Source of the DNA: Fibrobacter sp. UWB4
Lineage (GTDB): Bacteria > Fibrobacterota > Fibrobacteria > Fibrobacterales > Fibrobacteraceae
Direction: 5' to 3'
Length of the DNA: 64,000 nt
NCBI RefSeq assembly: GCF_002210345.1
Contig: NZ_MWQI01000006.1
Coordinates: forward strand, 1 to 64,000
Shown piece by piece: positions 5,596-41,080 of the stretch. The position numbers and the translations under genes are program-made. The notes beneath the pieces were generated by a model. That model saw nothing but the letters and a program-made list of their open reading frames with translations, was not told the origin of the DNA and made no database searches. Each line of letters opens with the position of its first letter. The first letter of the stretch is position 1.

Positions 5596-5699
5596 TCAAA
5601 TTGGTAATAATCTCCCTAAAATGGTAGTTTTTAGCATTTTTCTGGTCTAAAAATGAATTTTTGTAATAAAAATGTATTCTTTTGCGAAAATTATATTAT

Positions 5700-5895
5700 A
5701 TTTATTTACGTGAACGTATCAGAGGGGAGCTTTGATTTGTTTGCAATGGGTGCAAACGCTATTTAGCTTTTAAAAGAAATAAACAGCATAATAAGGAACC
5801 GTGAATACGGTTTTGGTGTATTTGGAGTTTGTTCAAAAGTCTCTCATTCCAACTCGTAAAATACTGTCGCCCTCCAATCGAGGGCGACTTCCCGT
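5700..5895 (+). ncRNA. Possible structured non-coding RNA
   Basis: No gene is visible, but three ordered hairpins lie between an AT-rich promoter-like stretch and a terminator-like stem. They are GTTTGCA/TGCAAAC (5739-5757, extended by AGCT/AGCT at 5728 and 5765), AACCGT-GAAT-ACGGTT (5797-5812), and GTCGCCCTC/GAGGGCGAC (5866-5888) followed by TTCCCGTTTT. I match it to no known RNA family; 6S RNA was considered but the closing-stem pairing was not found. Confidence 0.35.
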
Positions 5896-5930
5896 TTTGC
5901 AAGTTTGGAACTAGTGCTTTGGCGTATGAG

Positions 5931-5961
5931 AAAGGATCGGCTTGATTGCCGGTCCTTTTTT
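5931..5961 (+). terminator. Plus-strand terminator upstream of the tRNA-Glu array
   Basis: GGATCGGC/GCCGGTCC with a T-run. The stem has a T-G wobble only when read on the + strand (it becomes C-A on the other), so it probably ends a + transcript, perhaps the RNA candidate at 5700-5895. Confidence 0.6.
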
Positions 5962-6077
5962 ATACCGCTTTGTGCGGTTAAAAAAAGACCGACTTTTCAG
6001 TCGATCTTTTTATACCCTGTGTCGCGGTTTGCTCGAGGGTATAAAAAAAGAACCCAACTTGCGTTGAGTTCTTTTTA
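5962..6077 (-). repeat. Tandem terminators with tRNA-tail-like spacers, after tRNA-Glu copy 1
   Basis: Reading from the tRNA 3' end there are two stem-loops, GAACTCAAC/GTTGGGTTC and GATCGACT/AGTCGGTC, each preceded by GGTATAAAAAG and followed by T6-T7. The spacers (AACCGC...GGGTATAAAAAG) look like the tRNA-Glu 3' end with its flank. Each stem keeps one T-G wobble in the minus-strand sense. Confidence 0.7.
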
Positions 6078-6150
6078 TACCCCCAAGCGGTTTCGAACCG
6101 CTGTTGCGGGAATGAAAATCCCGAGTCCTGGGCCACTAGACGATAGGGGC
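6078..6150 (-). tRNA. tRNA-Glu (anticodon UUC), copy 1
   Basis: A 73-nt cloverleaf: acceptor GCCCCTA/TGGGGGT, anticodon stem CGGGA/TCCCG with loop TTTTCAT, T-loop TTCGAAA and discriminator A. CCA is not encoded. It is identical to copy 2 at 6420-6492. Confidence 0.95.
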
Positions 6151-6166
6151 GTTTTGTGTGAGGACA

Positions 6167-6194
6167 AATATAGGATTTTATAGAATAATGTCAA
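6167..6194 (-). promoter_or_regulatory. Promoter of tRNA-Glu copy 1
   Basis: On the minus strand: TTGACA, a 16-bp spacer, TATATT, then 16 nt to the tRNA. Copy 2 has the same elements and spacing. Confidence 0.75.
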
Positions 6195-6224
6195 GGGTGG
6201 ATGGATAATTTTTTTTGAGGGGGC

Positions 6225-6419
6225 GCGGCTTTTCATAGTCCGCTCTTTTTATACCCTTTGAAAAGGTTGAAAAAAAGACCAACCTTGTGGTTGATCTTTT
6301 TTATACCCTGTGTCGCGGTTTGCTCGATGGTATAAAAAAAGAACCCAACTTGCGTTGAGTTCTTTTTATACCGCTTGGCGCGGTTACAAAAAAAGCCAAC
6401 CTTGCGGTTGACTTTTTTA
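6225..6419 (-). repeat. Tandem terminators with tRNA-tail-like spacers, after tRNA-Glu copy 2
   Basis: Three clear stem-loops follow the tRNA: AGTCAACC/GGTTGGCT, GAACTCAAC/GTTGGGTTC (identical to one behind copy 1) and GATCAACC/GGTTGGTC. A fourth, degenerate unit follows. Units are separated by AACCNN...GGTATAAAAAG, which resembles the tRNA 3' end plus flank. All three keep a T-G wobble in the minus-strand sense, so selection acts on the minus-strand RNA. Confidence 0.7.
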
Positions 6420-6492
6420 TACCCCCAAGCGGTTTCGAACCGCTGTTGCGGGAATGAAAATCCCGAGTCCTGGGCCACTAGACGATAGGGGC
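6420..6492 (-). tRNA. tRNA-Glu (anticodon UUC), copy 2
   Basis: Identical in all 73 positions to copy 1, 342 bp away, with its own promoter and its own downstream terminator array. The two are separate transcription units arising from a local duplication. Confidence 0.95.
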
Positions 6493-6507
6493 GTTTTGTG
6501 TGCGCCA

Positions 6508-6535
6508 AATATAGATGTTTATAGGAAATTGTCAA
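6508..6535 (-). promoter_or_regulatory. Promoter of tRNA-Glu copy 2
   Basis: Minus-strand TTGACA, 16 bp, TATATT. It occupies the place of an in-frame ATG at 6515 of the divergent ABC gene, so that ATG is unlikely to be the ABC start. Confidence 0.75.
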
Positions 6536-40914: not shown

Positions 40915-41005
40915 AAAAAAAGACCTCTCGGAAGAGAGGTTTGTGAAAAAAAAGACCTCTCGGAAGAGAGGTTTGTGAAAAAAAAGACCTCCCAAAGGGA
41001 GGTCT
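40915..41005 (-). terminator. Three tandem terminators behind tRNA-Gly
   Basis: Reading from the tRNA: AGACCTCCC/GGGAGGTCT, then two identical AACCTCTC/GAGAGGT units, each followed by T7-T8 and joined by CACAA. One stem would suffice for a tRNA gene. They also face the converging brnTA transcript. Confidence 0.8.
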
Positions 41006-41008
41006 AAG

Positions 41009-41080
41009 AGCGGCGGACCGGGATCGAACCGGCAACCATTAGCTTGGAAGGCTAAGGCTCTACCATTGAGCTACCGCCGC
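41009..41080 (-). tRNA. tRNA-Gly (anticodon UCC)
   Basis: The acceptor GCGGCGG/CCGCCGC, the D-arm, the anticodon stem TTAGC/GCTAA with loop CTTCCAA and T-arm CCGGTTCGATCCCGG form a good cloverleaf. CCA is not encoded. A TATAAT -10 lies at 41091-41096 on the minus strand. It is divergent from infC. Confidence 0.95.

Follow-up and report, generated by a model that had tools for sequence, protein, structure and literature searches.

Tandem terminators behind the tRNA-Glu genes of Fibrobacter: a probable minisatellite-like back-up array whose spacers resemble the tRNA 3' end

In Fibrobacter sp. UWB4, each of two identical tRNA-Glu genes is followed by a row of hairpins with the features of intrinsic terminators, and such rows differ in the number and order of their units between the species of the genus. 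With a probability of about 0.75, these rows represent a minisatellite-like array of back-up terminators, in which units made of a tRNA tail plus a terminator have been duplicated and recombined and are kept by selection on the RNA hairpin. The anatomy of the arrays, their variation, the exchange of units and the pair-keeping changes were observed directly. The window referred to below is the whole stretch of DNA that was analysed, 64,000 nucleotides in length.

The original prediction had described two identical tRNA-Glu genes with a string of terminators behind each. This agrees with the ARAGORN annotation and with the finding that both tRNA-Glu(TTC) genes are contained in an identical 89-nt block. 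The genes do not encode CCA; the gene end reads ...GGGGGTA and is followed by TAAAAA. The features of the locus are listed in the direction of tRNA transcription.

6506 to 6535, minus strand: promoter-like element TTGACA-16-TATATT(TG), 5' of the first tRNA-Glu copy (predicted by consensus scan)
6420 to 6492, minus strand: tRNA-Glu(TTC), first copy (ARAGORN and Rfam RF00005)
6388 to 6418, minus strand: terminator hairpin 1, GTCAACC-GCAA-GGTTGGC with A and T tracts (folding, -15.4 kcal/mol in the minus sense and -10.2 in the plus sense)
6368 to 6387, minus strand: spacer AACCGCGCCAAGCGGTAT, which resembles the tRNA 3' end and is itself a small stem (sequence)
6334 to 6367, minus strand: terminator hairpin 2, GAACTCAAC-GCAA-GTTGGGTTC (identical copy at 6043-6076)
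6303 to 6333, minus strand: long spacer ATACCATCGAGCAAACCGCGACACAGGGTAT (sequence)
6270 to 6302, minus strand: terminator hairpin 3, GATCAACC-ACAA-GGTTGGTC (sequence and folding)
6251 to 6269, minus strand: spacer CAACCTTTTCAAAGGGTAT (sequence)
6223 to 6256, minus strand: truncated fourth unit without a working terminator hairpin (-7.3 kcal/mol, no T run)
6165 to 6194, minus strand: promoter-like element TTGACA-16-TATATT(TG), 5' of the second tRNA-Glu copy (predicted by consensus scan)
6078 to 6150, minus strand: tRNA-Glu(TTC), second copy, identical in sequence to the first (ARAGORN)
6043 to 6076, minus strand: terminator hairpin A, identical to hairpin 2 (sequence comparison)
6012 to 6042, minus strand: long spacer ATACCCTCGAGCAAACCGCGACACAGGGTAT (sequence)
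5980 to 6011, minus strand: terminator hairpin B, GATCGACT-GAAA-AGTCGGTC (sequence and folding)
5962 to 5979, minus strand: spacer AACCGCACAAAGCGGTAT (sequence)
5931 to 5961, plus strand: opposite-facing terminator GGATCGGC-TTGATT-GCCGGTCC-TTTTTT (-17.9 kcal/mol in the plus sense, -13.4 in the minus sense)

The first tail thus comprises three terminator hairpins followed by an incomplete fourth unit, the second tail two hairpins. Two to four stem-loops per gene had been predicted; two and three of them stand as terminators, and the fourth is a truncated unit that does not form one. The four quoted pairs of hairpin arms and the spacers of the form AACC...GGTATAAAAA were all recovered in the sequence, and the prediction has to be corrected in that the two tails share more than the tRNA, namely the hairpin GAACTCAAC-GCAA-GTTGGGTTC. 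The long spacers, e.g. at 6012-6042, start with ATACCC and end with GGGTAT. As a separate observation, one terminator's U tract and ATACCC might base-pair with the GGGTATAAAAA of the following terminator and give an alternative structure that might compete with the terminators. Both promoter-like elements (6165-6194 and 6506-6535, minus strand) read TTGACA-16-TATATTTG, and their end in TATATTTG recalls the Bacteroidota -7 element TAnnTTTG.

Folding energies of the tail hairpins range from -15.4 to -16.3 kcal/mol in minus-sense RNA and from -10.2 to -12.6 kcal/mol in plus-sense RNA. Stable stem-loops with stems of at least 7 pairs are directly followed by T runs of about 7 on the sense strand, so that the tail hairpins are best regarded as putative intrinsic (Rho-independent) terminators. 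In each hairpin quoted in the original prediction one T-G pair is present, as had been claimed, which is a wobble in the minus-sense RNA and a C-A mismatch in the plus-sense RNA. For the hairpin at 5931-5961, which lies immediately beyond the range given in the original prediction, the T run, the better energy and the T-G wobble all lie on the plus strand, and this hairpin probably ends a convergent non-coding RNA.

A search of 80 genomes of Fibrobacter, bacteria of rumen and gut, yielded nearly all of a collection of about 160 different tRNA-Glu tails; a few came from outside the genus and were excluded from later counts. The genome collections hold one genome per species, and the variation seen is therefore variation between species. 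Across Fibrobacter, one to seven hairpins were found per tRNA-Glu tail; some zero counts came from tails cut by contig ends, some chains included hairpins of the neighbouring RNA, and a stricter recount was made. About half of the Fibrobacter tRNA-Glu loci have a single terminator, and tRNA-Glu loci checked from other families of the phylum have at most one each. The array is therefore a lineage-variable expansion and not a fixed feature, and the extra terminators are not essential.

The repeat unit consists of spacer plus hairpin and measures about 50-60 nt. Near-perfect tandem arrays were found in two genomes, with a 51-nt unit repeated 6.2 times (L102, genome G094) and a 50-nt unit repeated 6.1 times (L134, genome G097). 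In a third locus (L105, G063) two units alternate in the order ABABA, and in a further one (L033, G005) two tails contain the same units in permuted order, every hairpin together with its own spacer. Altogether 22 hairpins occupy both a tRNA-adjacent and an internal position, in another or in the same locus, a pattern to be expected from crossovers within the common GGGTATAAAAA block, which includes the tRNA's own 3' end. Head-to-tail copies of a fixed unit in variable number, the hallmark of a minisatellite, were accordingly seen between species; TRF found no array in the window itself, where the units have diverged. The arrays are unlikely to be an assembly artefact, being present in genomes of about 10 or fewer contigs (G081, G082, G083 and G004).

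Mean folding energies were -18.1 kcal/mol at array position 1, -15.7 at position 2, -16.6 at position 3 and -14.2 at position 4 and beyond, and energies and U runs are terminator-like at every position among the hairpins measured, which had to have a T run. In the tRNA-Glu tails, 120 wobbles fit the RNA of tRNA sense as compared to 23 that are wobbles only in the antisense. Ordinary oriented Fibrobacter terminators gave the same ratio (38 to 8), and strand-specific wobbles as a special feature of tRNA-Glu tails were rejected on these grounds. The wobble bias thus marks the hairpins as terminators, nothing more.

Selection for RNA structure, proposed in the original prediction, is supported by double changes that keep pairs and by wobbles fitting the tRNA-sense RNA. 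When segments were picked by their flanks, blind to folding, 104 of 121 had paired ends as compared to 11 after shuffling; these segments contained 69 T-G and 14 G-T pairs, and wobbles possible only on the other strand were rarer (11 A-C, 2 C-A). Of the couples formed by tetraloop hairpins, 174 are distinguished by a single base pair; in 109 of these, both sides had changed. Intermediates such as GAGCTCAAC/GTTGGGTTC (G-U) stand between A-U and G-C forms. A hand-picked set of 32 hairpins showed double changes at all eight pairs and a covariation score of 0.936, whereas shuffled controls scored 0.312 and slid controls no more than 0.173; these hairpins were chosen from pairing ones, and their 100% pairing is not evidence. 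The genus-wide hairpin counts, the 174 couples and the hand-picked set were all selected for pairing and are inflated, the flank-picked test is less biased, and the sequences are related by descent, so that the counts do not represent independent events. The stems are in summary kept by compensatory change, as intrinsic terminators would require, on a basis that includes a set chosen for pairing. T-G pairs would be lost under a DNA-level process that perfects palindromes; that they persist points to the RNA.

The spacers argue for an origin from the tRNA gene itself. Each unit combines a spacer AACCGC...GGGTATAAAAA, similar to the tRNA 3' end, with a hairpin of the GNRA type and a U tract. In one species (L219, G065) the spacer (ACAACCGCTTGGAGTTATACG; ACAACCGCTTGGAGTTATACGAAAAG) reproduces, almost without change, the 3' strand of the T arm and the acceptor end of its own tRNA, AACCGCTTGGAGGTA. 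Similarly, the spacers GGGGTACTAAAAATG in a tRNA-Glu(CTC) tail (L075) resemble the end of that same tRNA gene. Of 85 distinct spacers, which are not independent, 62 contain CCGC, as compared to 5.7 expected after shuffling. The older spacers have kept AACCGC and GGGTATAAAAA, separated by 6-7 nucleotides as compared to 5 in the tRNA, and their middle GACAAA differs from the TTGG of the tRNA. Because middle and gap depart from the tRNA, the proposed tRNA origin of the older spacers draws on two motifs, AACCGC and GGTATAAAAA, and on the single recent copy in L219. The repeated copying of a module of tRNA tail plus terminator, as originally suggested, is borne out by the 50-51 nt period repeated about six times, the exchange of units and this near-intact spacer copy.

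The duplication route, termination itself and its benefit are deduced from sequence, and we propose the following course of events. Each tRNA-Glu gene would be a separate transcription unit with its own variable array of intrinsic terminators. The units were probably born when a segment comprising the 3' strand of the T arm, the acceptor end and the first terminator was duplicated in tandem, and would multiply, vanish and swap places by recombination between near-identical blocks, including the tRNA 3' end. Point changes would then build up while selection keeps the minus-sense RNA folding. Each hairpin may halt part of the RNA polymerases, and the row could serve as a fail-safe that keeps polymerases leaving a strongly expressed tRNA gene from running on into the following tRNA copy or into a convergent RNA. 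Fail-safe termination is the most likely function of the array, provided that the hairpins terminate as predicted. Genomes with a convergent RNA beside the array have 2-7 hairpins as compared to 0-4 in genomes without it (Mann-Whitney p = 2e-6), a link between longer arrays and the convergent RNA that is suggestive only, as these genomes may be one clade.

In the window, the convergent RNA corresponds to a candidate unannotated non-coding RNA of about 250 nt at 5690-5961 on the plus strand, with a promoter-like TATATT and the terminator 5931-5961. Its body is highly conserved, with 80% mean column identity over 15 aligned loci, and the stem GTCGCCCTC/GAGGGCGAC has double changes at two pairs. 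It was found in 17 of the 80 genomes of the genus, one of these being a weak match to the end only, and had no Rfam match. A contig labelled Treponema sp. RGIG9962 (L135) carries both a Fibrobacter tRNA-Glu array and the conserved stem of this RNA; the label is probably a binning error.

Several other explanations were considered. The arrays might be the remains of longer tandem tRNA-Glu clusters, from which the tRNA bodies were deleted and the tails left, without benefit beyond the first terminator. The tandem duplication of tRNA-Glu genes in many species, the tRNA 3' end motif in the spacers and the truncated unit at the far end of one array would fit this scenario, which we nevertheless regard as unlikely: near-identical six-unit arrays expand without tRNA bodies, and downstream hairpins retain strong energies, U runs and pair-keeping changes. 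With still less confidence, the array could be viewed as a fast-evolving tuning device, in which the number of units would determine the amounts of tRNA-Glu precursor that are terminated, processed or read through, and in which recombination with the tRNA's own end would change copy number and alter the trailer too.

It appears improbable that excised trailer hairpins serve as small RNAs, or the spacer GGUA-UAAAAA as a decoy for 3' processing, copy number tuning the maturation of tRNA-Glu. The sequence surrounding the 3' cleavage site of the tRNA does recur in the spacers, and one tail scored 40 bits against the Bacteroides sRNA BTnc231 (RF04180), in which hairpins likewise alternate with U tracts. 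This value is far below the family threshold of 80.4 bits, gives no evidence of homology and is best read as a shared architecture of hairpins and U tracts; in the Rfam search tRNAs alone were above threshold, several sRNA models matching below it by composition. The arms of the hairpins are moreover not conserved in sequence between species, unlike those of an RNA with targets.

Since tRNA 3' ends are common attachment sites and the spacers resemble the tRNA end, the units could also be scars of integrative elements, each having left a partial copy of it. This is very unlikely, as each repeat contains a terminator and little else, with a period of 50-51 nt unlike such scars, and the five neighbouring proteins scanned in this genome (DeaD, an ABC protein, PEMT, a kdo-transferase-like protein and LytB) included no integrase or element remains.

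In the entire genome of 3.58 Mb, the pattern GGTATAAAAA-N14-30-TTTTTT occurs only at the five sites described here and at the tRNA-Glu(CTC) locus, and the reversed control gave zero matches. Weaker matches elsewhere in this genome and in G013 are ordinary single terminators. Most of the tRNA genes examined in this genome have one terminator; more than one in a row was found only for tRNA-Glu and tRNA-Gly(TCC). Among the relatives that GTDB names, those sharing this tRNA end belong almost exclusively to Fibrobacter. A dispersed repeat is rejected on the basis of the genome-wide pattern search, and a small mobile palindromic element (REP or MITE-like) inserting repeatedly into tRNA-Glu tails, although the units are palindromic and repeated, can practically be dismissed in view of zero dispersed copies, the strict head-to-tail arrangement with a fixed period and the lack of an integrase or transposase in the five neighbouring genes scanned.

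The preferred reading, a recombining array of back-up terminators, has parallels in known systems. As in E. coli rrnB, where the tandem intrinsic terminators T1-T2 lie behind a stable RNA gene, several terminators of hairpin and U tract follow each other behind a strongly transcribed RNA gene; unlike there, Fibrobacter has up to seven, the repeat unit includes a copy of the tRNA 3' end, and number and order vary by species. With bacterial minisatellites or VNTRs the arrays share homogenised head-to-tail units of 50-51 nt in variable number, but the Fibrobacter unit is a terminator with compensated arms, which preserves structure rather than sequence. Terminators in a row and tandem repeats are both known; what is new is their union in an array apparently seeded by the tRNA end, with exchange of units and compensated arms. 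The open-access literature searched contained nothing on tandem terminators behind Fibrobacter tRNAs.

These loci offer a natural series of terminators that apparently originated from the end of the gene itself, multiplied as a tandem repeat and diverged under selection for RNA pairing, with the A-U, G-U and G-C forms of one hairpin still visible as intermediates. About 100 related terminators form a panel for measuring the effects of stem, wobble, loop and number on termination, and the array allows one to ask whether selection favours redundant terminators where stable RNA genes converge.

Two further tandem arrangements were noted in this genome. Behind tRNA-Gly(TCC) (41008-41080, minus strand), in the same window, lie three tandem terminators (40915-40991) with a period of 32, two of them identical and one related; this tail is similar to those of tRNA-Glu but differs in that its spacer lacks a copy of the tRNA end and its copies have hardly diverged. 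At C1:818938-819448 (L002-L004), three tandem tRNA-Lys genes follow each other in exact 219-base steps.
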